29,593 nt of DNA. Source: a virus. Location of the stretch: the IMG/VR virus record IMGVR_UViG_3300036766_000170, positions 1 to 29,593 of that record. One strand, given 5' to 3'. The notes beneath the pieces were generated by a model that worked only from the letters and a program-made list of their open reading frames with translations, was not told the origin of the DNA and searched no databases. Each line of letters begins with the position of its first letter. Position 1 is the first letter of the stretch. Both the position numbers and the translations under genes were made by a program. This document shows, in pieces, positions 5,266-29,593 of the stretch.

Positions 5266-6360
5266 ATGGCCTACGTTACTCCGCGTACCTGGACAGATGG
5301 CGAAGTGCCAACCGCCGCGATAATGAATCAGGACGTACGCGACAACATAGACATACACTCGGGGATCGTTTCGCCCGACGGCGCGGAAGTCGGCGCCCGG
5401 TTCCGCAACCTGTTACACAACTCCGGTTTTGGTATATGGCATCATACGAACGCCGATAGCCTCACGTCGATCGCTGACGACGTATACGGCCCCGATCGTT
5501 GGTACGGGCTCACACAGACAGCCGCGATCCAGATGCAGCGGAGTGCCGGTAATCGTGCCTTCCGCGATTGCCTGTTGAAACAGAGCCAAGCCGCCGCGCA
5601 ACGGATGGGCCTAGCGCAAATCGTAGAGGCGTGCGAGTCTAAGTGTTGCCGCTCTTCGGCGCTCTCGCTCAAGTTCGCGTGTAAGCCGTCCGTTACAACC
5701 ATCATGCGATACGCGATCCTGGAATGGACGGGTACCGCCGACGCCGTTACGTCCGATGTTGTTCTCGATTGGACGAGCGCGGTATACACGGCTAACGCTT
5801 TCTTTCTCGCGGCGAGCCTCACGGTTGCCGCCGTCGGATCTATCTCATGTGCGGCGGGAGCCTGGACGGACGTAACGACGCTCGCGGCGACGATCTCCGC
5901 CTCGTGTAATAACCTGATCGTGTTCGTATGGACAGAGGGAACCGCCGCCCAAAACGTGACGGTAGAGATCAGCGAACTGATCCTCTCGCGGGAGCAAGAG
6001 CCGGAATGGTACCCGCCGAACATGAGTGAGGACGTAACCAATTGCCAACGGTTCTACGAAGGCGGAATGGGCACGGACGGGACGCTGATTACGTATCACG
6101 TTTACCCCGCCGCCGCCGCGTCGATCGAAATGTTCTCACATTTGAAGTTCAAAACGCGGAAGCGCGCGATACCAACGATCACGCTCTACAGCGCCGGGGG
6201 CACGATCAACAAAATATCCGAGGTTGCGGGCTCCATCGTAGACGTAGTGCCGACAACGGGAGCAATGGCGATCGGGGATAGCGGATGCTCCGTCCAACAC
6301 AACGCGGCGGGGAGCATCAACGGGATCGGCTATCACTACGCGGCGACCGCGGATCTGTAA
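5266..6360 (+). CDS. Tail fibre / receptor-binding protein 2 (tandem paralogue)
   Basis: 364 aa, paralogous to the gene immediately upstream. Shared blocks include the N-terminus (MAYVTPRTWTDGEVPTA, NQDVRDN), YGPDRWYGLTQTAAIQMQRS, AQRMGLAQI, KFACKPS, YAILEWTGTAD, FFLAASL and VFVWTEGTAAQNVTVEISE. Similarity falls sharply after about residue 250. The YYEKSYDIDTLPG motif of copy 1 is replaced by CQRFYEGGMGTDGTL, and the C-terminal tip is different. The pattern is duplication with divergence of the receptor-binding tip, giving two fibre types or a heteromeric fibre. The TAA overlaps the ATG of the next gene (TAATG at 6358-6362). The spacing of 3 bases to the upstream stop leaves little doubt that the two are co-translated. 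Confidence 0.8.
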   Translation: MAYVTPRTWTDGEVPTAAIMNQDVRDNIDIHSGIVSPDGAEVGARFRNLLHNSGFGIWHHTNADSLTSIADDVYGPDRWYGLTQTAAIQMQRSAGNRAFRDCLLKQSQAAAQRMGLAQIVEACESKCCRSSALSLKFACKPSVTTIMRYAILEWTGTADAVTSDVVLDWTSAVYTANAFFLAASLTVAAVGSISCAAGAWTDVTTLAATISASCNNLIVFVWTEGTAAQNVTVEISELILSREQEPEWYPPNMSEDVTNCQRFYEGGMGTDGTLITYHVYPAAAASIEMFSHLKFKTRKRAIPTITLYSAGGTINKISEVAGSIVDVVPTTGAMAIGDSGCSVQHNAAGSINGIGYHYAATADL

Positions 6361-6626
6361 TGGATAAGGTAACGGCTCTCGCGCTTGTCAATTCCGAGCT
6401 AGACCGGGCGCAACAGGACTTCCCCCCGTTCGTTGACTATCACGAGGGCTACGCGAAGCTCTACGAAGAGGTAGACGAGCTATGGGAAGCCGTACGCGGT
6501 AAGAGTCTCGGCGATCCCCAAGAGCGGCGCGTAGCGATGGGCCTAGAGGCGATCCAGGTAGCAGCTATGGCGCTCCGGTTCCTGATCGACTTGATAGGCG
6601 ACGAGGGGACGGGGCCCAATGAGTAG
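6360..6626 (+). CDS. MazG-like nucleotide pyrophosphohydrolase-like protein
   Basis: 88 aa, all-helical. The ATG at 6360 overlaps the upstream TAA and is preferred over a longer frame inside the fibre gene. The segment EGYAKLYEEVDELWEAV gives the E-x-x-E metal-binding pattern of the all-alpha NTP pyrophosphohydrolase (MazG) superfamily. A second helix, EAIQVAAMALRFLIDL, corresponds to the usual second conserved helix, although the expected E-x-x-D pair is reduced to E-A-I-Q. Phage members hydrolyse (d)NTPs or alarmones, or clear modified nucleotides. Here the gene sits between tail-fibre and unknown genes rather than with replication genes, which is unusual. It overlaps the next gene by 8 bases. 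I am confident of the fold class, less of activity. Confidence 0.6.
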   Translation: MDKVTALALVNSELDRAQQDFPPFVDYHEGYAKLYEEVDELWEAVRGKSLGDPQERRVAMGLEAIQVAAMALRFLIDLIGDEGTGPNE

Positions 6627-6813
6627 AGCCTCGGTAATCATCCTTTCCAACGCTCGGCTATCTACGGCGCGCTCGGCGCTATGGAAGGCGGAAGAGTCGT
6701 TGCGGCACGGTAAGGACAAGGAAGCGAAGCAAGAAGCGGCCCAAGCACTCTACGAGATCGAGAGGGCGGCGGCGCAAATCAAGAAGGCGTTTCGCATAGA
6801 GGCGCCCGAGTAG
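6619..6813 (+). CDS. Small helical protein of unknown function
   Basis: 64 aa starting at the ATG at 6619, which overlaps the MazG-like gene's stop by 8 bases. The sequence is almost entirely amphipathic helix and highly charged (SLRHGKDKEAKQEAAQAL, then a second Ala/Glu/Lys helix). No metal-binding or membrane motif is visible. I do not recognise the family. Translational coupling suggests a protein made in similar amounts to its neighbours. Confidence 0.55.
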   Translation: MSRASVIILSNARLSTARSALWKAEESLRHGKDKEAKQEAAQALYEIERAAAQIKKAFRIEAPE

Positions 6814-6838
6814 CACACGAAAGGGAAGAGGCGACGTT

Positions 6839-7645
6839 ATGGGATTCCGAACGTACACGGTAGAGATCCAGAAGGAAGGCGTGATCCAATCGGATCAGCG
6901 CGCGACGTTGGCGATTGACGAGGGGACGGGAAAGGCGATCCTTGACTTCGCGGCGACGTTCCCGAATCACCGTGACATGCAAGCCGACTTCGGCGCCGGG
7001 CTCGATTTTTCCGGGCAAGTGCTACAAGCCGCGATGAACGTGATCCGTGGTATCAGCGTCAACCCGACGCGGGTATCAGGTTGGACGGCGTTTAGCGGCA
7101 CGGTTGACGATGCGCCCGCCCAGGTTTACACGGACTATCGGGAACTCCACACGACCGGCGCCGCCGAAGTTCTCGGGCCGGGCTCTTTCGCCTTTATGGA
7201 TTCCGGCGCCGCGTGTGTAAGCATGTTCGCCGGGCAAGATATCGCCGAGGCGGACGCGGGCTCTACCGTTCTCAGCGCGGGCGACGCGCCCGCCGTCGGC
7301 GTGTTCGCGCGATGGCTGAAAGTCCTACTGAACGGCGAGACGTTCACTCCCGGCGGCGTCGCGGCGGTACAGTTCTTGAGCTTTCAAGCGAACGTTACCG
7401 ACGTGCAAGCCGAAGATACCTCGATATGGAACGTCGAAGTTGCGAGCGGCGGGATCCGATCGCTCTTCCGCTTCCGTCACTCGGCGTCGGAGTTCGCGAC
7501 AAACTTCTTTGAGCTTGATTCGGAGATCGAGCCGATCGTAACGTGGGAGCCTACCATCGTCCCGCAAACGGACGCACCGTCAAAGGGGTTGCGCGTTAAG
7601 GTCGGTAGCGCGGTCTACAACATTCCCGCCTACCTGGTTCCGTAA
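6839..7645 (+). CDS. Putative virion protein of unknown function
   Basis: 268 aa with AAGGGAAGAGG at 6820-6830 as ribosome binding site. The protein is rich in β-strand-forming, Gly/Ala and aromatic residues, with no signal peptide, Cys pairs or enzymatic motifs. The first about 50 residues (FRTYTVEIQKEGVIQSDQ onward) look like a short strand-loop segment. The middle (EVLGPGSFAFMDSGAACVSM) and the end (RVKVGSAVYNIPAYLVP) read like a β-sandwich. Its place downstream of the fibres and upstream of a holin-like gene fits a minor tail or decoration protein. I cannot name the family. The TAA overlaps the next ATG (TAATG). Confidence 0.55.
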   Translation: MGFRTYTVEIQKEGVIQSDQRATLAIDEGTGKAILDFAATFPNHRDMQADFGAGLDFSGQVLQAAMNVIRGISVNPTRVSGWTAFSGTVDDAPAQVYTDYRELHTTGAAEVLGPGSFAFMDSGAACVSMFAGQDIAEADAGSTVLSAGDAPAVGVFARWLKVLLNGETFTPGGVAAVQFLSFQANVTDVQAEDTSIWNVEVASGGIRSLFRFRHSASEFATNFFELDSEIEPIVTWEPTIVPQTDAPSKGLRVKVGSAVYNIPAYLVP

Positions 7646-7836
7646 TGCCCGACATTACACGCGAACACCTAACAGCAAGGTTGGCGTACTACCAACGCGA
7701 AGCGGTTAAAGCGGCGTCGCTCGTTACAGCCAATCAAGCCGCAGCGGAAGCGATCGCGGAGTTGTTGCGGACAACTGACGAGCCCGCGACGAACCCGCAA
7801 GAGCCCGACGATAACCGGGCGCCACTAGGGGATTAA
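7645..7836 (+). CDS. Small helical protein of unknown function
   Basis: 63 aa. An N-terminal helix rich in Ala, Gln and Arg (about residues 5-43, likely coiled coil) is followed by an acidic, Pro/Asn-rich tail. The start codon overlaps the upstream stop, so it is translationally coupled to the putative virion protein. Small coiled-coil proteins at this position in phages are often structural accessories or lysis chaperones, but nothing in the sequence decides this. A short hairpin follows the stop directly. Confidence 0.5.
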   Translation: MPDITREHLTARLAYYQREAVKAASLVTANQAAAEAIAELLRTTDEPATNPQEPDDNRAPLGD

Positions 7837-7852
7837 CGCGGCACACGCCGCG
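7837..7852 (+). terminator. Short GC hairpin after 7645-7836 gene
   Basis: CGCGGC (7837-7842) pairs perfectly with GCCGCG (7847-7852) around an ACAC loop, directly after the TAA. No T-run follows, and the next gene's GAAAGGAAAGA ribosome site begins about 8 bases later. It may attenuate or stabilise mRNA rather than terminate it. Confidence 0.25.
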
Positions 7853-7875
7853 CTAGCAGTTGAAAGGAAAGACGC

Positions 7876-8184
7876 ATGAATACGGAAGCAATAGCGGCGG
7901 CACTCGTAGCCGTCCCGATCCTTGTCGGCATTATCCAGGCGATCAAAGCGCAGTTTGACGATCTCCCCGGCGGGCTGATCCCCCTCGTCGCCGTGGCGCT
8001 CGGGATCGCCTTCACTGTTGGCGGCGCCGCGTCCGAACCCGGTTCCGTCCAGGTGGGAGATCCTACGATGTTCGCGCAGATCGTCGCCGGGATCGTTCTC
8101 GGGCTCGCGTCCAGCGGGTTCTATGACGTGAGTTCTACCGGCGTCGGCACGGTTGCAGCCGTCGTCAAATCGGCGACGAGGTAG
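7876..8184 (+). CDS. Holin-like small membrane protein
   Basis: 102 aa with a good ribosome site (GAAAGGAAAGA). Three hydrophobic stretches are visible: about residues 5-23, 33-51 and 66-84, separated by short polar loops (QAIKAQFDDLPGG and ASEPGSVQVGDPT). The C-terminus is short with a few basic residues. Size, number of segments and location at the end of the tail module before a terminator fit a class I-like holin, which would make the membrane hole that releases the lysin. The lysin candidate, however, lies 13 kb away at 21638, and two other small membrane proteins (26135 and 27671) compete for the role. No experimentally diagnostic motif exists for holins. Confidence 0.5.
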   Translation: MNTEAIAAALVAVPILVGIIQAIKAQFDDLPGGLIPLVAVALGIAFTVGGAASEPGSVQVGDPTMFAQIVAGIVLGLASSGFYDVSSTGVGTVAAVVKSATR

Positions 8185-8206
8185 CTTCCGGCTCCGAGTA
8201 ACGCGA

Positions 8207-8237
8207 GAGAGCCCCTAGACGGCCCGTAGGGGCTCTC
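8207..8237 (+). terminator. Strong hairpin ending the tail/holin operon
   Basis: GAGAGCCCCTA (8207-8217) and TAGGGGCTCTC (8227-8237) form a perfect 11-bp stem with a 9-base loop, 23 bases after the holin-like gene's stop. There is no T-run downstream, which is common for terminators in GC-rich actinobacterial systems. It separates the late tail genes from the replication/nucleotide module, and its symmetry means it could act in both directions. Confidence 0.7.
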
Positions 8238-8272
8238 CGGCGCCATTCTGAGAGGGTTAGGAGTAATCGGGT

Positions 8273-8590
8273 ATGAGCGGTCAAGATGCCCCTAAGACGT
8301 GGGAAGAGGGCCTAGACGCGGCCCTAGCCATGATCCGCGAGACGATGATAGAGCGGCACACTAAGTACGGCCCCGGCAATATCGCCATGAGCGGCGAGCT
8401 AGGGGTAGCCGTGAGGACGGGCGACAAGGTAGCGCGCCTGTTGAACATGCACCAACACCCGGACGCTAAGGACTTCCAGGACGATAGCGTACTCGACGCC
8501 TATACGGATCTCGGCGGGTACGGGACGATCGGGATCATGCTCCGGCTCGGCTACTGGAAGCTCCCGGCTCATTGCCTCGGGGATGCGTAA
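8273..8590 (+). CDS. DUF1599 / nucleotide-modification-associated domain 1-like protein
   Basis: 105 aa with GGAG about 10 bases before the ATG. The pattern H-T-K-Y-G-P-x-N-I, then GVAVRTGDKVARLLNM, then DSVLDAYTDLGGYG and a final hydrophobic helix, matches what I know of DUF1599 (NMAD1), a helical family distantly related to MazG. It is often found beside phage replication or nucleotide-modification genes. The acidic and basic residues of the DKVARL and ED/DD-x-x-LD helices would form the active site. Its TAA overlaps the ATG of the DNA polymerase gene (TAATG at 8588-8592), so a role in nucleotide-pool handling during replication is a reasonable inference. Family assignment is by pattern memory only. 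Confidence 0.6.
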   Translation: MSGQDAPKTWEEGLDAALAMIRETMIERHTKYGPGNIAMSGELGVAVRTGDKVARLLNMHQHPDAKDFQDDSVLDAYTDLGGYGTIGIMLRLGYWKLPAHCLGDA

Positions 8591-13673: not shown

Positions 13674-14018
13674 ATGAGGGCTAGTAGAACTCCCGAATAC
13701 TCGGCGTGGCTGAATATGCGGTATCGTTGCCGTAACCCGCTCGTTCCCAATTTCCCGGACTATGGCGGACGCGGGATCCTTGTCTGTGAACGATGGGAGA
13801 CCTTCGCGAACTTCCTTGCCGATATGGGCTCGCGCCCGTCCCCCGCTCACTCCCTGGACAGGATCGACAATGACGGCAACTACGAGCCGGATAACTGCCG
13901 TTGGGCGACGCGATCAGAACAAGCGCTAAACCGGCGCCGACGCCGGAAGCAATACGAATCATACCTAGAGGAACTTGAAGCGCACGATCGGGAACAAAGG
14001 ATAAGGGGCATAACCTAA
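13674..14018 (+). CDS. HNH-like mobile endonuclease-like protein, copy 3
   Basis: 114 aa. It starts directly with [18 protein letters not shown], so it lacks the N-terminal about 30 residues found in copies 1 and 2. It then has [39 protein letters not shown] and a long basic/acidic helix at the C-terminus. 13760-13829 is 68/70 identical to 3538-3607 of copy 1, so part of the sequence was exchanged or copied recently even though the flanks differ. No clear ribosome site precedes the ATG. It lies between the minus-strand pair and the left inverted-repeat arm, on the opposite strand from the former. Confidence 0.7.
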
Positions 14019-22546: not shown

Positions 22547-22974
22547 GTAGACGGATCAACCCGTGGCGAACGAAGCCGTTAGCGCAACGGGTACCGCCCG
22601 TGTTGCGGGAATTGCTCGCGGTATGGCAACCGCGCTTAGGGCTCACGCATTGGGGAGACATACCGCTATACGTCCGCAACTTCAAGGACACAACCGCCGC
22701 CGAGATCCGTTGGACGAAGGGGTACAAAGGCGCGGCGGTCTCGTTCTCTAAGAAGTGGATCGAGGCGCCGGAGCGAACGTACGCGGACTTCGAGACGACG
22801 CTAGTACACGAGTTGATACATTTGATCTTCGCAGAGTTTGACGACGCGATCGAAACGGGGCTCGGCTTCGGCTCCGTGTACGATTCATACTGTGAGAAGC
22901 GCGAGGGTCTTTGCGATGTGTTCGCGTCCCTCTTCATTGCGCGGTACGCTAGAGCTAAGAAGGTAAAACGGTAA
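22543..22974 (+). CDS. SprT-like zinc metallopeptidase
   Basis: 143 aa from ATG 22543 (ATGA overlap). TTLVHELIHLIFAEFDD carries the zinc motif H89-E90-L-I-H93, preceded by the usual E/D-T helix, and the N-terminal part (PRLGLTHWGDIPLYV, RWTKGYKGAAVSFSKKW) matches the strand-rich substrate platform of SprT/Wss1-type proteins. The third ligand is probably in the downstream helix (YDSYCEKREGLCDV). Family members cut DNA-bound or cell-wall-linked proteins. Next to a lysin, a role at lysis or in degrading host proteins is possible. It is coupled to the methyltransferase gene by TAATG. Confidence 0.7.
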   Translation: MSRRINPWRTKPLAQRVPPVLRELLAVWQPRLGLTHWGDIPLYVRNFKDTTAAEIRWTKGYKGAAVSFSKKWIEAPERTYADFETTLVHELIHLIFAEFDDAIETGLGFGSVYDSYCEKREGLCDVFASLFIARYARAKKVKR

Positions 22975-23810
22975 TGATCAACGCTTTTCCGTGGTATGGT
23001 GGGAAAAGTTTACACCTGAAACATATCCTTCCGTTGTTGGATATCTCGGGGGTGAGGCATTATATTGAGCCGTTTGCGGGATCCGCTGCCGTTTTGTTGA
23101 ATCGGCCTTCGTCGCCAATCGAAACACTCAATGATATCGACGGGGAGATCGTTAATTTCTTTCGGGTGTTGCGAATGCAAGAGGCCGATTTTCTTAAAGC
23201 GCTCACGCTTACGCCTTACTCCCGAGCCGAGTTCGAGGCTTGTTTGGTTGTACCAAAGGATCTCGAACTACTAGAGCGGGCTCGCCGCTTTTACGTGCGT
23301 ACGATTTGTGCGCGTGGGGGATCGCCGCGTCCGACTCTTGGACAGTGGATGGGCGCCCCCATGAGCACGTATCGCGGTAGGGTGCGCGGAGTCCGGCGCG
23401 ATGTTCACGCTAGGATTAGTCAATGGTTTGGGCATATCGAATCGCTCCCGGAGATCGTGACGCGGCTTTTGTTTGTTGAGTTCGAGAATCGTGACGCGAT
23501 TGACGTGATCAAAAAGTACGACGCGCCGGACGTTCTCTACTACGTCGATCCTCCATACTTTCCGCGCGATCGCGTCGCTCCAAAAATGTACTATTACGAG
23601 GCCGGCGCGGAATACCACGAAAGGCTTTCGGACACGCTGCGGGGTTGCGCCGGAAGGGTGGCAATATCAGGTTACGCGGGCGAGTACGATCGTTTATATT
23701 CCGGCTGGCGAGTTGTGCGCTGGCCGGTAACGGCGCTGGCATCCGTAACACGAGCGAAGCGTGAAGAGTCCGTATGGTTAAACTACAGCATTAACGGGGA
23801 GCGGATCTAA
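22974..23810 (+). CDS. DNA adenine methyltransferase, D12 class (Dam-like)
   Basis: 278 aa. FPWYGGKS at the N-terminus, YIEPFAGSAAVLL (SAM-binding motif I) and D192-P-P-Y195 (catalytic) give the alpha-class N6-adenine methyltransferase of PF02086. The region between (SRAEFEACLVVPKDLELLER, FYVRTICARGG) is the target recognition part. The last segment (ALASVTRAKREESVWLNYS) closes the fold. A hand count of the first 120 bases gives about 48% GC against about 63% in the preceding gene, and codons such as TTG, GTT and CGT dominate, so the gene was probably acquired recently. It is followed by a second, unrelated adenine methyltransferase. Confidence 0.88.
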   Translation: MINAFPWYGGKSLHLKHILPLLDISGVRHYIEPFAGSAAVLLNRPSSPIETLNDIDGEIVNFFRVLRMQEADFLKALTLTPYSRAEFEACLVVPKDLELLERARRFYVRTICARGGSPRPTLGQWMGAPMSTYRGRVRGVRRDVHARISQWFGHIESLPEIVTRLLFVEFENRDAIDVIKKYDAPDVLYYVDPPYFPRDRVAPKMYYYEAGAEYHERLSDTLRGCAGRVAISGYAGEYDRLYSGWRVVRWPVTALASVTRAKREESVWLNYSINGERI

Positions 23811-24541
23811 TGCCCCCGAAGGCGCGTACCTCAAGCAATACGTACGAGCATCCGACGCCGGATAAGCTCTTCGTTGATCTCTCGCGGGAGTTCGGCCCGT
23901 TCGACTATGATCCCGCCACGCGCGCGGAGTTCTTTACCGCGAAGCATGTAGGAGCGTTCTCTACACTGGAAGGGACGTACGTTAGCGGCGGCTTCCCGCT
24001 TGAGTGCGCGCATGGTCTCCCCGGCGAATGGAGCGGGTACCACGTCGGCGACGAGCGGGACGGACTCTCGTTCCCCTGGACGGGCCGCGTATTCTGTAAT
24101 CCCCCGTATGGGCGGCTTATGTGGCAATGGGTTAAACGCGGTTACGACGCCGTACGCAAGGGAGACGCGGAGCTAGTCTGTATGCTCTTGCCGGTACGAT
24201 CCGATCTTCGATGGTGGCATAAGTACGTACTATCCGAAGTCCGGCGCGCGAAGATGGCAGCGGTAACAAAACGGTTCCAGGTACCCGGCGCGCTCTCCGA
24301 CGTGTTCCGCGTCACCGCGCAAGGACACGAGCCCGCCGACGTTGTACGGTACTTGCCGGGCCGCGTGCGTTACTACGAGTACGTTTGCGTTGAGTGCGGA
24401 CACGAACACTTACATAGCAATTGCGAGACGATCGTAAGCCCGCTCGTTGAGTGCGGTTGCACGTCGCGCGAGCATGAGGTTAACGCGGACACGAACGCGG
24501 CGCCGTTCCCGAGCGTCGTTGTAGTTTGGCGGAAACCATGA
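23810..24541 (+). CDS. Phage-type DNA N6-adenine methyltransferase with zinc-ribbon insertion
   Basis: 243 aa. EHPTPDKLFVDLSREFGPFD followed by DPA, then VFCNPPYGRLMWQWVKRG with N97-P-P-Y100, LLPVRSDLRWWHKYV and a final PFPSVVVVWR strand match the PF05869-type phage Dam family. Between GRVRYYEY and NAAPFPS, where relatives have a short loop, lies a Cys/His-rich segment: C193-V-E-C196-G-H, C205, C215-G-C217, enough for a zinc ribbon. GC content returns to the genome norm, unlike the upstream methyltransferase. The target site is not readable from sequence; GATC is one possibility. It overlaps terL by ATGA. Confidence 0.82.
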   Translation: MPPKARTSSNTYEHPTPDKLFVDLSREFGPFDYDPATRAEFFTAKHVGAFSTLEGTYVSGGFPLECAHGLPGEWSGYHVGDERDGLSFPWTGRVFCNPPYGRLMWQWVKRGYDAVRKGDAELVCMLLPVRSDLRWWHKYVLSEVRRAKMAAVTKRFQVPGALSDVFRVTAQGHEPADVVRYLPGRVRYYEYVCVECGHEHLHSNCETIVSPLVECGCTSREHEVNADTNAAPFPSVVVVWRKP

Positions 24542-26148
24542 GCGGGTTTGCGGAACGATGGGCTAAGAACGGGGACAAGTACCCAAACGATATCGTTCTC
24601 TTTGCCGAGAGCCAATGGGTACTAAGGAACGTGCCGCGCAACACGCGCACGGGCCCCGATGGTTGTATCGTCCTAATGGATCACCAAAAGATCATACTCC
24701 GCGAAATGACGCGGCGTAACCCGGATGGTACCTTCGTCTATGACGTTTGGATCTACAGCACGATCAAGAAGTCCGGTAAGACCGAGATCGAGGGAATCGT
24801 AGGCGCATGGCTCGCGATGGTAGAGCCGGGGCTCCCCGAGATTTACACGATCGCTAACGACAAAGAGCAAGCGCGAACCCGAGCGTTCGAGGCTATCGCG
24901 CAACAGATCATCCCGGTACGCGCAACAGGACAGCCGCGTAACCCGGTACTTGCATCGCTCTTCGGGACGCCGCGCAAGGACACGATCCCGATCGGGGATG
25001 GCGGCTTCCTAAAGACAGTCGCGACAGACTACGCCGGAGAGTCCGGCGCCAACCCTACCGCGTCCCTATGGGATGAGCTTTGGGGAGTAGAGCGCGAAAC
25101 ACAACAACGGTTATGGGATGAGTTCACGCCGGTTCCAACGAGGCTCAACTCGATCCGGTTCGTCGCCACGTACGCGGGCTTCCGTAACGAGTCGTTGCTA
25201 TTGTGGGATCTCTATCAGCGAATCGTGATCAACGGGCGACGGCTTACGCGCGCGGAGCTTAACGTACCGGCGTCGTACATGGGATCGATCCCGCCGATCT
25301 ATGTTTCGCAAGAGGGAAGCGAGATCGCATATTGGGATACCGGCGAAGAAGCGCGGCGTATGCCGTGGCAAACACCCGCGTACTACAAGGCAGAGAAGGC
25401 GCGGCTACGGCCCGAGGCGTACGCGCGGCTACACGAGAACATATGGCAAGATAACGTACAGGCGTTCATTAGCGCCGAAGCAATCGACGCACTCCCGCGC
25501 TACGCCCGGCGTCCAGGCTTCGAGAACGAGGACGGGTACCCGGTATACATCGGCGTAGACGCGGCGCATAAGCGAGACTCTACGACCGTCGCCGCAATTG
25601 AGTACGTGCCCGAGGGATTCAACCAAGATACGGGGCTCGTACTCGAACCGCGCTTCCGCTTAGTCGATCATCAAATATGGTTGCCGACGCCGGGTAACGT
25701 CGTCATACCGGAAGAGACCGCGTTACCCTGGATCCGTTCGCGCGTTGAGCGGGGTTGGAATGTGCGGGGCATCGGCTACGATCCCGCGCACTTCGAGACC
25801 GCCGCCGCCATGATGCGCCGAGAACAGATCATCCCCGAGGATCGAATACGCGAGATCACACCTAGCGACGCGCACCTAACCGCGCTCGGTTCCGCGCTAT
25901 ACGACACGATCCTATACGGGCGCCTGGACTTAGACGAGGACTCGGAAGCGATTTGCCAACACATACGTAACGCGATGGCCGTAAGGACGGCGCGCGGTTG
26001 GCGACTCTCGAAGGGGAAAGAGGCGAACAAGATCGATGGCGCGGTAGCTTGCGGGATTTGCTTACTACTCGCGATCGCGTTCGGGCATGACGACGCCGAA
26101 TCACATTCCCCTATATATTTCGTAGGTGTTGACGATGACGATTTCTAA
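24538..26148 (+). CDS. terL: Terminase large subunit
   Basis: 536 aa from ATG 24538 (ATGA overlap); the TTG 12 bases upstream is less likely. The ATPase has a phage-type Walker A, S74-T-I-K-K-S-G80-K81-T82, then DKEQARTRAFEAI, and Walker B ending in L-W-D179-E180-L-W. The nuclease domain starts near 335 with VYIGVDAAHKRD (D341) and continues through YDPAHFETAAAMM and the D/E-rich end (SKGKEANKIDGAVA, ending DDDDF). All essential parts are present. No small terminase gene is obvious directly upstream, where the methyltransferases sit. The C-terminus overlaps the next gene by 14 bases. It packages DNA into the prohead and works with the portal, whose gene begins near 29323. Confidence 0.93.
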   Translation: MSGFAERWAKNGDKYPNDIVLFAESQWVLRNVPRNTRTGPDGCIVLMDHQKIILREMTRRNPDGTFVYDVWIYSTIKKSGKTEIEGIVGAWLAMVEPGLPEIYTIANDKEQARTRAFEAIAQQIIPVRATGQPRNPVLASLFGTPRKDTIPIGDGGFLKTVATDYAGESGANPTASLWDELWGVERETQQRLWDEFTPVPTRLNSIRFVATYAGFRNESLLLWDLYQRIVINGRRLTRAELNVPASYMGSIPPIYVSQEGSEIAYWDTGEEARRMPWQTPAYYKAEKARLRPEAYARLHENIWQDNVQAFISAEAIDALPRYARRPGFENEDGYPVYIGVDAAHKRDSTTVAAIEYVPEGFNQDTGLVLEPRFRLVDHQIWLPTPGNVVIPEETALPWIRSRVERGWNVRGIGYDPAHFETAAAMMRREQIIPEDRIREITPSDAHLTALGSALYDTILYGRLDLDEDSEAICQHIRNAMAVRTARGWRLSKGKEANKIDGAVACGICLLLAIAFGHDDAESHSPIYFVGVDDDDF

Positions 26149-26494
26149 GGATAAGGTTCAGGAGCCGGACGAAGAGGCGGCGGACGAATCGCTAGAGTCG
26201 CAAGCGTTCAAGGACGCGCTTCTAAATGGAGACGAGAAACTAAACCGGCTCGTTAAGCTCGTAGATGTTCGGTTCGAGTCGCAAGCGCGACGCACGAACA
26301 AGGCGCGTAGGGAAGCGAAAGAAGCGACGGACACACTACGTAGGGATCTCGCGCCACTGATCGAGTTGGCGCAAAGCTGGAAGGGGATATCGAAGGCGGC
26401 TAGTTACGCGCTGATCATCGTCGGCGCTTGCGCTACCGTCTCCGGTGCAATCGTAAGCGTGTTGTACGCGCTTCAACAGTTGGGGATCATATGA
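26135..26494 (+). CDS. Coiled-coil protein with C-terminal membrane span
   Basis: 119 aa from ATG 26135, inside the terL end. The acidic N-terminus (QEPDEEAADESLESQAFKDA) leads to a charged helix with heptad spacing (about residues 35-80) and a C-terminal membrane helix (about 89-111, ASYALIIVGACATVSGAIVS). The layout resembles some holin-associated or XhlA-type lysis proteins, which carry a cytoplasmic coil and one anchor at the C-terminus. It is one of three small membrane proteins in the window. Its place among packaging genes leaves the role open. Confidence 0.6.
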   Translation: MTISKDKVQEPDEEAADESLESQAFKDALLNGDEKLNRLVKLVDVRFESQARRTNKARREAKEATDTLRRDLAPLIELAQSWKGISKAASYALIIVGACATVSGAIVSVLYALQQLGII

Positions 26495-27312
26495 AAGTCA
26501 TAGTTACCGAGAGTCACGAACGGCGAGAGGATATCTTCGAGCGCTTGCGCTCCGAGCGCAACCGTAGCGGTTGGGCCCATCAACACGAGCTATGGCCTTG
26601 CGTTCGTAAGGGCGCCGCCGAGCGATGGCTCGAACAACAGGGAACGATCCTCAAGCCCGGCAAGCAATCCGCCCTATACTTCATGCGCGGCAACATGGCG
26701 GAAGGGCACACCGAGAACAAGAACTATCCGAAGATCCTTGTTGTGTACCGAGGCGTTGCCGCCACGCCGGATCAATGGACAGGCGATCCGCTTCGGCCCT
26801 TCGAGGAATTGAAGTCTACGAACTTCTCTTCGTTCAATTGGTTTAAGATAGTGCGCGACGGCGGGATCGATATGTCCCCCGGAAACAATTTCCCGATGCG
26901 TAACTACCTTGAGCAATGCGCGATCTACTGTATCGCGTTGCGCGCGACTTCCTGCTACCTAACGATCTTCTTTCTACACGGAGACTACGCCGATCGTCGG
27001 AAGGCTTGCCCCGCGTGCGGCGGCACGCTCGGCGATTGGGTAGAGGACTTCTACAAGCCGTGCGGTGATTGCGGGTACAAGGCTAAGAAGTCGGATCTTT
27101 GGACGTATCAACTAGACTTCCCGCCGGACTATCTCGCGCAACTGGAAGCCGACGTATACGGCTACCGCGCGCCCGCGTTCTACGAAGCGATCCAGGCGGA
27201 TACCGAGGCGCAACTCTTGGAACTCGCCCCGCCAACACAGAACTTCTATTGTCAGACGTGCAAGCCCGGCGAGCTTGTAGGTTGTGAGAACGCGGGACGC
27301 GAGTTCAAATGA
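26491..27312 (+). CDS. Cas4-like PD-(D/E)XK nuclease with Fe-S-type Cys and an extra zinc ribbon
   Basis: 273 aa from ATG 26491 (ATGA overlap). Nuclease signs: WPCVRKGAAERWLE at the start, PFEELKST with E106-L-K108, and MRNYLEQCAIYCIAL with the Q-x3-Y motif of RecB/Cas4-type enzymes. One Cys near the N-terminus (C37) and three near the C-terminus (C254-x2-C257-x7-C265) match the four-Cys Fe-S arrangement of Cas4/AddB nucleases. Between them lies a separate C173-P-A-C176...C191-G-D-C194 zinc ribbon, not part of the usual fold. The likely role is 5'-3' or end-processing exonuclease in recombination-based replication or host DNA breakdown. There is no CRISPR array or other cas gene here. Confidence 0.75.
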   Translation: MKVIVTESHERREDIFERLRSERNRSGWAHQHELWPCVRKGAAERWLEQQGTILKPGKQSALYFMRGNMAEGHTENKNYPKILVVYRGVAATPDQWTGDPLRPFEELKSTNFSSFNWFKIVRDGGIDMSPGNNFPMRNYLEQCAIYCIALRATSCYLTIFFLHGDYADRRKACPACGGTLGDWVEDFYKPCGDCGYKAKKSDLWTYQLDFPPDYLAQLEADVYGYRAPAFYEAIQADTEAQLLELAPPTQNFYCQTCKPGELVGCENAGREFK

Positions 27313-27671
27313 ACAACAAGCACGGTATGGTAGGTACGCGGGTTTATCGTTCTTGGACAATGATGATCCAGCGCGTGACGAATCCAAACTTTCCGAAGTT
27401 CGTTTCGTATGGCGGACGCGGGATTACGGTTTGCGATCGTTGGCGATCTTTCGAGAACTTCTACGCTGACATGGGAGACCGCCCCGAGGGGCTAACCCTT
27501 GACCGTATCGATAACGATGGCAACTACGAGCCGGGTAATTGCCGATGGGCAACCCTCATAGAGCAAGCACAGAATAAAAGGCCCCGCGTATTGCTTGGGC
27601 CGTGGCCTTCTACTCGGGCGGGACGCGCCGAAAGAAGCGCGGAATATCGTAAGCGTAAGGTAGTTCGGTAA
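27309..27671 (+). CDS. HNH-like mobile endonuclease-like protein, copy 4
   Basis: 120 aa. The ATG overlaps the upstream TGA, and the TAA overlaps the next ATG, so it fits the operon without scarring. HGMVGTRVYRSWTMMIQRVT, then [40 protein letters not shown] and a basic tail show the same family as 3374, 3746 and 13674. The DNA differs more from copies 1 and 3 and is richer in T, hinting at a different source. A 26-nt stretch near 27523 is shared with copy 1. Confidence 0.7.
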   Translation: MNNKHGMVGTRVYRSWTMMIQRVTNPNFPKFVSYGGRGITVCDRWRSFENFYADMGDRPEGLTLDRIDNDGNYEPGNCRWATLIEQAQNKRPRVLLGPWPSTRAGRAERSAEYRKRKVVR

Positions 27672-27934
27672 TGCTCGTACTCGCGCTCTCCGTTGTCGTC
27701 TCGCTGATCTCGTTTGCGTCGTTATGGTGCGTCGGCTCGCCATTCGCACGCACGCGGGTTATCGGGTTCCTGATCGGGATCGGCGGTCAATTCGTGTTCG
27801 CTTTCCTGGACATTATCACCGGAGCGTACGGGCTCCTGTTGCTCTTCGTGGTCTACGTGCCTCTCTACATACGGGCTATCGGCAATCAGTCGGAGAGTAT
27901 GGACGAGTCGGTAAGGCGGCGCCGTGGCGGATAA
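27671..27934 (+). CDS. Small three-span membrane protein
   Basis: 87 aa. Membrane helices at about residues 3-22 (LVLALSVVVSLISFASLWCV), 30-50 (VIGFLIGIGGQFVFAFLDI) and 53-71 (AYGLLLLFVVYVPLYIRA), followed by a charged, basic tail (SMDESVRRRRGG). It has the size and helix count of a holin or of a superinfection-exclusion protein. It overlaps the next gene by 11 bases (GTG at 27924). Together with 7876 it is one of two three-span candidates for the holin. Confidence 0.6.
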   Translation: MLVLALSVVVSLISFASLWCVGSPFARTRVIGFLIGIGGQFVFAFLDIITGAYGLLLLFVVYVPLYIRAIGNQSESMDESVRRRRGG

Positions 27935-28283
27935 GGCTTGGAAGGCGGTTGAGCGACGCATAGCGGAACGGCTACGTATGATGCGTACCCCGCTCTCGGG
28001 ACGCGGCGGCGGCGCCGGTACCTCGGGGGATTGCTACGCGGCGGTTGGCGCTTCCCGCTCCAAGCTGTACGTAGAGGTTAAGCACTATGCGCGCGCGTTT
28101 ATCTTCTCTCTCTTCAAGGACACGGAGACGAAGGCGGCGCGCGAACGTCGAACGCCGATCGTCGTCATGCATGAGAAGGGGACACAGCGGTACGTAGCGG
28201 CGATCGATCTTGAATTGCTTTGCTACCTACTCGATAAAGTAGACGGCGACGGGACAGGCTCGCTATTCGGAGAGAAAGGTTAG
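27924..28283 (+). CDS. Holliday-junction-resolvase-like PD-(D/E)XK nuclease
   Basis: 119 aa from GTG 27924, overlapping the membrane protein by 11 bases. AWKAVERRIAERL, then PLSGRGGGAGTSGDC with D36, and LYVEVKHYARAFIFSLF with E51-V-K53, give the D...E-x-K triad of small archaeal-Hjc-like phage nucleases. The later strand (TPIVVMHEKGTQRYVAAID) is also typical. It probably resolves branched replication intermediates before packaging, which suits its place among packaging genes. The start codon GTG and strong motifs make the frame secure. Confidence 0.75.
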   Translation: MADKAWKAVERRIAERLRMMRTPLSGRGGGAGTSGDCYAAVGASRSKLYVEVKHYARAFIFSLFKDTETKAARERRTPIVVMHEKGTQRYVAAIDLELLCYLLDKVDGDGTGSLFGEKG

Positions 28284-28288
28284 AAGCT

Positions 28289-29287
28289 ATGGAGCGGCGT
28301 TGGACGGACGAACAGGACACGCGGCTACGGTATCACTTGGATCTAGGGCTCACGCACGAAGAGATCGCCGAGTGTCTACGCGACGAGTCGATCGACGCGA
28401 CGCCGCAATCGGTACGCGGGCGCCTTCGTCGTCTCGGGCTCAAGAGCGTTCGCGGCGCCCCGGCGTCCTCGCGCGCGCTCGTCACTGTGAGTAAAGACGA
28501 CTTCCCGCCCGGCGTGCCCGCGTCCAGGTTCAAGCGGGTACAGGTTCCGGTACGTTCCGGCGATCGCTGGATCGTGCTGAACGATACGCAATTCCCCTTC
28601 CATGACGTGCCGACGCTCCAAGCGGTAACGCGCTTCCTGGACGATTTCGAGCCTCACGTTATCGTGTTGAATGGGGATATCTTCGACTTCTACGAAATGT
28701 CCGACTTCGACAAGAACCCGCGCCGGGCCTTCACCCTACAGGACGAGATCGATATCGGGCGCAAAGTGATCGACCGATGGGCGGACAGGCACAACCGCGC
28801 GAAGCGGATCCTTATCGCGGGCAACCACGAGGATCGGCTCCGGCGTCAACTATGGAAAAATCCGAGGTTCGCTTCGCTTCGGGATCTTGACCTACAGCAT
28901 TTGCTTTCCCCGGACGATGCTTGGGAAGTGCTACCCTACGGATCACAAGCGCAGATTTCACACATGCTTGTAGAGCATGGGGATCGCGCCACGTCGAAGA
29001 GCGCTTACTCCGCGTGGGGAATGTTCCTCAAGCGCGGCATGAGCGGGATCATGGGGCACACTCACCGCATGGCGCGGATCGAACACACGGACGATCGGGC
29101 AAATCATCGGCTCTTCTACATTGAGAACGGTTGCCTTTGCTCACTCGAACCCGAGTACGCGCCGTACCCGAATTGGCAACACGGGTTTACGTACGGGTTC
29201 ATTAACAACGGGAGCGTACACGCGAACACGGTTGACGTTCTCGAAGATGGGTTCCGCGAAGAGGGCCGTTGGTACCGGCGCGGATAG
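28289..29287 (+). CDS. Metallophosphoesterase with N-terminal helix-turn-helix
   Basis: 332 aa, 5 bases after the previous stop; GAAAGG lies about 10 bases upstream. Residues about 3-60 (RWTDEQDTRLRYHLDLGLT, EEIAECL, SVRGRLRRLGL) form a Myb/HTH-like DNA-binding domain. The phosphoesterase has D99-T-Q101 in place of D-x-H in motif I, then G129-D130 (LNGDIFDFY), G-N179-H180-E181 and G256-H257-T-H259. The Q101 for His change is one metal ligand short. Enzymes of this type act as phosphodiesterases or phosphatases. Fusion with an HTH suggests it works on DNA. It sits just before the portal gene. Confidence 0.85.
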   Translation: MERRWTDEQDTRLRYHLDLGLTHEEIAECLRDESIDATPQSVRGRLRRLGLKSVRGAPASSRALVTVSKDDFPPGVPASRFKRVQVPVRSGDRWIVLNDTQFPFHDVPTLQAVTRFLDDFEPHVIVLNGDIFDFYEMSDFDKNPRRAFTLQDEIDIGRKVIDRWADRHNRAKRILIAGNHEDRLRRQLWKNPRFASLRDLDLQHLLSPDDAWEVLPYGSQAQISHMLVEHGDRATSKSAYSAWGMFLKRGMSGIMGHTHRMARIEHTDDRANHRLFYIENGCLCSLEPEYAPYPNWQHGFTYGFINNGSVHANTVDVLEDGFREEGRWYRRG

Positions 29288-29322: not shown

Positions 29323-29593
29323 ATGAACTTTCTTCCGAGTTTCCTACGGCGAGAGCGCCGGGAAATACAATTCGACCGGGGGATCATGTTGTCCGACGAA
29401 ACGGAAACGATACCCGGTACGATTGCCCGATCTCGTCGCTCGCTTAACACGTACTGGAAACACTACCGGGATAACCCGATCGTACATGCGGCGTGCGTTG
29501 AGGTCGTTAACGCGCTGATCGGGATCCCGTTCATCCCGGAACAGTACGACGCGGAATCGAATACATGGAGCCCGCTACCGGCAACGGACAGGC
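29323..29593 (+). CDS. Probable portal protein, N-terminal part (runs off the window)
   Basis: ATG 29323 with GAGGTAAGAG a few bases upstream; open for 90 codons to the window end. The sequence has TIARSRRSLNTYWKHYRDNP, then IVHAACVEVVNALIGIPF, the W-x-x-Y...NP-x-V-x-A...N-x-(I/V) pattern that begins HK97-type portal proteins. Position after terL, nuclease and phosphoesterase genes agrees with the usual order terminase, portal, capsid. Too little is visible to be certain. No stop is seen inside the window. Confidence 0.6.
   Translation, partial: MNFLPSFLRRERREIQFDRGIMLSDETETIPGTIARSRRSLNTYWKHYRDNPIVHAACVEVVNALIGIPFIPEQYDAESNTWSPLPATDR

Follow-up and report, generated by a model that had tools for sequence, protein, structure and literature searches.

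Nucleases of the RecB/Cas4 type are the described proteins closest to the gene studied here. Among the Cas4 proteins of CRISPR systems (e.g., Pcal_0546 and SSO0001; DUF83/PF01930), metal-dependent cutting of single strands was reported in a study that also proposed the conserved His94 of Pcal_0546 as a metal ligand (PMC4176176), and cleavage of flaps and splayed arms has been reported for one CRISPR Cas4 (PMC12538437). The functions of Cas4 homologs encoded by viruses and mobile elements are described as unknown in one account (PMC5704561). According to a further source, T4 endonuclease VII prepares replicated DNA for packaging by debranching it, and the portal protein is the site to which this enzyme is targeted (PMC3485210).

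Two sets of phage proteins served as references. The first (A4) comprises eight pfam12705-type exonucleases of the RecB family, found from gp40 of Stenotrophomonas phage AXL3 and picked for spread from 60 matching records; they originate from phages of Stenotrophomonas, Campylobacter, Acinetobacter, Pseudomonas, Vibrio, and Xanthomonas. The second (A5) comprises ten actinophage 'Cas4 family exonucleases' (Adephagia gp61, TM4 gp59, and proteins of Gordonia and Arthrobacter phages), found from Adephagia gp61 and picked from 371 matching records; close homologs of Adephagia gp61 are annotated as Cas4 family nucleases. The A4 and A5 profiles recognise each other (P 1e-4).

The window, i.e., the whole stretch of DNA analyzed here, is a virus record of one contig (29,593 bases, GC content about 0.58-0.62), in which no tRNA gene was found. 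An intact open reading frame on its plus strand, from the ATG at 26491 to the TGA ending at 27312, encodes a protein of 273 aa, whereas the opposite strand of this interval is interrupted by stops. We tentatively read this protein as a divergent RecB/Cas4-type PD-(D/E)XK nuclease with an Fe-S staple and an inserted ribbon, which would trim or debranch DNA for packaging. The reading builds on the gene, its motifs, their conservation and spacing, and the synteny of the locus, from which the fold, the metals, the nuclease activity, and the packaging role are predicted.

The candidate gene and its relatives

The gene remains unnamed by the family libraries searched, as no model of Pfam, PHROGs, NCBIfam, or PADLOC matches the candidate protein as a nuclease. 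PDB sequences gave no match, and no relative was found by tblastn against phages and plasmids, by automatic pattern scans built from the single candidate protein, or by single-sequence scans with TerL and the DNA polymerase. A weak match in Lacusarx (E 1) runs antisense to an annotated gene and was rejected, as was, upon examination, the weak plasmid match H33.

Relatives were obtained with a hand-made pattern (E-x-K-S, Y-x2-Q-x3-Y, and G-D-Y at the observed spacing), which was derived from the window protein itself and occurs once in the window and in none of 100 shuffles. Three loci of the viral collection carry this pattern, one of them a true relative. In viral contigs, a scan with the resulting two-sequence alignment recovered the locus already found and a new one, which provided the third member of the family; the same scan of genome contigs found no locus. 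The second member is encoded in contig IMGVR_UViG_3300043256_000241 (37.6 kb; loci L012 and L015) and the third in contig IMGVR_UViG_3300037247_000497 (9.6 kb; locus L014). Both are 43-44% identical to the window protein and 77% identical to each other. Between these two closer relatives, dN and dS are 0.173 and 1.330 for the nuclease gene, and 0.145 and 1.480 for TerL. Two other uncultivated phages carry this gene at the same position, which indicates that it is real.

Two further patterns added no member: the combination of GDY and a ribbon gave six loci, all by chance, and HGDYxxxRxxCP gave eight stretches, namely the two known relatives and six chance matches. One chance pattern match (L009, 1739-1845, minus strand) is a ribonucleotide reductase-like protein, in which GDY is followed by a four-Cys ribbon at the C-terminal end.

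Genomic context and the proposed role in packaging

The candidate gene shares the plus strand with its TerL, small-protein, HNH, resolvase-like, and metallophosphoesterase neighbours. Upstream of it are two adenine methyltransferase genes, the terminase large subunit TerL (24526-26148; phrog_9, E 1.9e-32), and a small protein (26126-26494) that occupies the same place in the relatives and is 34% identical to its L014 counterpart (E 4e-7). Downstream are an HNH endonuclease (27309-27671; phrog_374, E 5e-43), a small hydrophobic ORF, a small resolvase-like PD-(D/E)XK protein (27924-28283; phrog_244, E 2.4e-7; 42-50% identity to the proteins of the relatives), and a metallophosphoesterase (28289-29287; PF00149 above the cut-off; phrog_221, E 1e-41), after which the record ends. 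The methyltransferase genes (22974-23810 and 23810-24541; D12 class and Dam-like) are adjacent to each other. The small protein directly after TerL has a hydrophobic C-terminus and no family match above the cut-off.

In both relatives (L014 and L015), the order is TerL, the small protein, the nuclease gene, the resolvase-like protein, a phosphoesterase-like gene, and the portal protein, which in L014 matches PF04860 (E 1.4e-33). By eye, the ORFs past the portal look protease- and capsid-like, and L015 has additional ORFs between TerL and the nuclease gene, one of them kinase-like. Homologs of TerL, of the small protein, and of the resolvase-like protein occur in all three contigs, whereas the phosphoesterases occupy the same place (28289-29287 in the window, 3094-4005 in L014) with no BLAST match of the window's phosphoesterase to those of L014 and L015 and with different PHROGs. 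The position between packaging genes claimed by the sequence-only reading was thus borne out with the help of the relatives: the window shows TerL upstream only, ending at 29593, and the relatives place the portal downstream. Neither relative shows the HNH gene at this position, and therefore it may be a mobile insertion. It shares its best PHROGs (phrog_374, phrog_3377, and phrog_8790) with another HNH gene of the window (13674-14018).

The wider distribution of the gene was assessed by a TerL scan, which gave 19 loci, i.e., two carriers and 17 others spread over 16 records (TerL identity 25-37%). A search of the 16 whole non-carrier records, which may be fragments, with the profile of the three family members (A3) found no nuclease, so that 2/18 records have it when the carriers are counted. 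Since 16 other records with a related TerL lack the gene, the nuclease is no general packaging factor. Among the non-carrier TerL loci, a portal-like ORF (by eye, stop to stop) starts no more than 171 bases from the TerL match in 9/11 cases, and, together with the lack of the nuclease in these 16 records, this indicates that insertion of the block is lineage-specific within the records covered. In a distant relative (L019), the portal-like ORF that follows TerL (5722-8343; 874 aa) contains a stretch resembling an intein by eye.

We propose that in this TerL-portal block, which also encodes the resolvase-like protein and the metallophosphoesterase, the nuclease would trim or debranch replicated phage DNA for packaging. 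The activities of T4 endonuclease VII and Cas4, taken with the location of the nuclease beside a resolvase-like protein between TerL and the portal, make cleaning or trimming of DNA around packaging the most likely role. The one observation that points to packaging as such is the position of the gene. Processing of DNA ends, a function suggested for the protein from its sequence, is plausible. A nuclease fixed between terminase and portal would tie this type of enzyme to packaging in a concrete way that can be tested.

The same kind of nuclease might alternatively act in recombination or replication, e.g., by making single-strand tails or recycling host DNA, and lie next to the packaging genes by chance. 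Cas4-like exonucleases of phages are usually found in replication and recombination regions (by DNA polymerase I in AXL3, by a RecA-like gene in Amigo, and by a helicase in Salgado), and genes for DNA polymerase and primase/helicase are likewise present in the window. On the other hand, the placement between TerL and the portal is kept in relatives at 43% identity, and models of the annealing proteins RecT and ERF matched nothing in the three records, which may be fragments. We consider this alternative a serious but somewhat unlikely one. It is doubtful that the three proteins represent a separate nuclease family of phage packaging modules, with a single Fe-S staple and a single inserted zinc ribbon, in which the ribbon would tether the enzyme to TerL, the portal, or the neighbouring small protein and thus physically couple trimming or debranching to packaging.

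Cysteines, catalytic motifs, and the ribbon insert

The candidate protein contains 11 Cys residues, at positions 37, 143, 147, 155, 173, 176, 191, 194, 254, 257, and 265. The eight Cys named from the sequence at the outset are all where they had been placed; C143, C147, and C155, which were absent from that list, are likewise invariant in all three family members. In the three-way alignment A3, 10 of the 11 Cys are invariant compared with 110 of the 273 residues overall (hypergeometric P about 6e-4), and thus Cys is enriched among the invariant residues. L014 retains the eleventh, C194, for which the protein P0003 has a shifted counterpart, so that the P0003 insert also contains four Cys. The spacing of the Cys is by itself within chance, as 20,000 shuffles of the candidate protein produced Fe-S-like spacing 1374 times and ribbon-like spacing 685 times. 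The signal is raised above chance by conservation, both of the Cys and in the dN and dS of the two closer relatives.

The layout of an iron staple, in which the core is preceded by one Cys and followed by three, is present in all three members: C37 (26599-26601, plus strand, as for all features below) and C254-x2-C257-x7-C265 (27250-27285) are invariant, and the latter pairs with the CxxC of the references. C37 would hold, together with C254, C257, and C265, an Fe-S 'staple' linking both ends of the chain. Between them, motifs II and III of a PD-(D/E)XK core (D ... [D/E]-x-K) are found as D94, E106, and K108 (26770-26814), followed by QxxxY as Q142-x3-Y146 (26914-26928), which profile comparison pairs with the reference QxxxY. 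The spacing of these motifs is as in the references, with the D94-to-E106 distance being 12 in the candidate vs. 11 in 10/10 A5 proteins. In the alignment, the position of RecB motif I is taken by G67-x3-E71 (26689-26703), with G-x3-E in all three family members and G-x3-H in 18/18 references. E71, D94, E106, K108, Q142, and Y146 are invariant in A3. Glu71 probably takes the place of the motif I His and would form a metal-dependent active site with D94, E106, and K108, and Q142 and Y146 would act as the QxxxY motif.

The whole ordered signature (N-terminal C, Gxxx[HE], D, [DE]xK[ST], QxxxY, CxxC..C), which was composed post hoc with the sequences already known, occurred in 1 of 20,000 shuffles. 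Among 285 ORFs of 200-400 aa, a set that includes overlapping copies of loci, it was found in nine copies of the new family and three A4 proteins, and in nothing else. The signature is insensitive, being carried by 3/8 A4 and 1/10 A5 proteins.

A four-Cys segment directly follows HGDY166 and ends before the conserved D202; its length is 35, 38, and 48 residues in the three proteins. In the window protein, this insert spans residues 167-201 (26989-27093) and holds C173, C176, C191, and C194. Two C-x2-4-C pairs within a short segment are the arrangement taken here to define a zinc ribbon, and the insert, with four Cys in 3/3 proteins, agrees with it; matches to zinc-ribbon models of the family library are weak and below the cut-off (DZR, E 0.25). 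Judged from this Cys arrangement, the ribbon probably binds zinc. Placed in the loop that follows the QxxxY helix, it may be an additional finger for binding DNA or a partner. The distance from Q142 to C254 minus the insert is 77 in all three members, and the corresponding distance in the references is 67-74 in A4 (8 proteins) and 74-80 in A5 (10 proteins, in two of which Asp replaces the first Cys). Since the insert-subtracted spacing fits the references, the ribbon behaves as a clean loop insertion in an otherwise Cas4-like C-terminal half. None of the 18 A4 and A5 proteins has such an insert, and this survey upholds the sequence-only reading in calling the ribbon an extra not usual for the family. 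Literature searches among open-licence papers yielded none whose title or abstract opening describes a ribbon-bearing phage Cas4-like nuclease, a scope that does not prove absence. That three divergent phages retain a second metal module suggests that a ribbon can be inserted into the RecB/Cas4 scaffold without altering the spacing of the core motifs.

The metal sites might also be misassigned, with C143, C147, and C155 joining a metal site and the terminal Cys binding zinc or nothing. These three Cys, whose codons (26917-26919, 26929-26931, and 26953-26955) adjoin QxxxY, are as invariant as the other Cys, and the frequency of Fe-S-like spacing in shuffles leaves room for such an assignment. 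It is nonetheless quite unlikely, considering that the terminal triad aligns with the triad of the phage Cas4-like proteins and that its distance from QxxxY fits the references once the ribbon is removed.

Family assignment and comparison with known systems

The curated models did not assign the protein to a family. The Cas4 model PF01930 had no match in the window's own record at E up to 10, with 9 of 14 control genomes matching, and PF12705 had none in 12 records including the three carriers at the same threshold; the reference AXL3 gp40 does match PF12705 (E 1.2e-15). No match to the DUF2800 and DUF3799 models was found in the three carrier records. Because the curated models do not match and motif I lacks its His, the candidate was not filed in the Cas4 or PDDEXK_1 families.

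Profile comparison of A3 with A4 gave a weak local match at the terminal Cys (P 0.014, or 0.0074 with the ribbon columns removed), whereas no similarity to A5 was detected (P 0.71). The ribbon-less A3 matched the merged A4 and A5 profile over 83 columns (P 0.017), with Q142/Y146 placed on QxxxY and C254/C257 on CxxC. Column shuffles reached the local score in 1/60 and 0/150 cases for full A3 vs. A4, in 0/60 and 0/150 cases for ribbon-less A3 vs. A4, and in 1/60 and 0/150 cases for ribbon-less A3 vs. the merged profile. For A5, the score was reached by 57/60 (full) and 22/60 (ribbon-less) shuffles. The ribbon-less family scored 24.9 and 22.2, above the 14.7 and 12.9 obtained with a TerL alignment as the negative control. 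The global alignment score of A3 vs. A4 was reached by 54/60 shuffles, and that of A3 vs. A5 by 1/60 in an alignment that is out of register and hence meaningless. AlphaFold2 models from the single sequence and from three sequences (mean pLDDT 34.9 and 36.6) were too poor to read, and a Foldseek search of PDB and BFVD with these low-pLDDT models returned nothing at E 0.001 or better.

The description of the protein as a Cas4-like nuclease therefore stands in part: the ordered motifs, their spacing and conservation, and the weak match to the pfam12705-type profile speak for it, while no curated model recognises the protein and the motif I His is replaced by Glu. The best reading is a divergent, ribbon-bearing variant that would work like the iron-staple nucleases of the RecB/Cas4 type, the fold and the nuclease activity being predicted from sequence.

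A recombination exonuclease of the lambda-exonuclease/YqaJ kind with incidental terminal Cys is a highly unlikely alternative. The G-x3-E of motif I and an 'SPD' in two members resemble features of YqaJ proteins. Against it, the YqaJ model PF09588 matched none of the three carrier records at E up to 10, and the conserved C37 and C-terminal triad are, to our knowledge, unexpected in that family.

The absence of a CRISPR context, noted in the sequence-only reading, was confirmed within the scope searched, with no Cas1 model match in the three carrier records, no PF01930 match, and no array-like direct repeat in the window within 120 bases. It is extremely improbable that the protein acts on the host as an anti-CRISPR or in spacer acquisition, as reported for the Cas4-like proteins of Campylobacter phages (a report summarised in PMC5704561): this role is favoured by family resemblance only, the Campylobacter phage protein belonging to A4, to which the similarity is weak, and the missing Cas1 and array leave the earlier suggestion of an action on host CRISPR adaptation with no evidence found in its favour.

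The preferred reading, a RecB/Cas4-type nuclease with a ribbon in a packaging block, can be set against four known systems. With T4 endonuclease VII the candidate shares an analogy of the proposed packaging role only (PMC3485210), and no homology is claimed. It differs from CRISPR Cas4 by the ribbon and the motif I Glu, by its occurrence without cas genes, and by the failure of PF01930 to match the window record. The A5 proteins share the order and spacing of C ... G-x3-[H/E] ... D-x(10/11)-[D/E]-x-K ... QxxxY, but lack the ribbon (10/10) and show no profile similarity (57/60 shuffles higher). The A4 exonucleases also differ, by the lack of a ribbon (8/8), by a motif I His (8/8) where the candidate has Glu, and by DxK in place of ExK, and the profile match to them is weak and local; they share with the candidate the motif order, one N-terminal and three C-terminal Cys, QxxxY, and the ribbon-subtracted spacing from Q to the triad.
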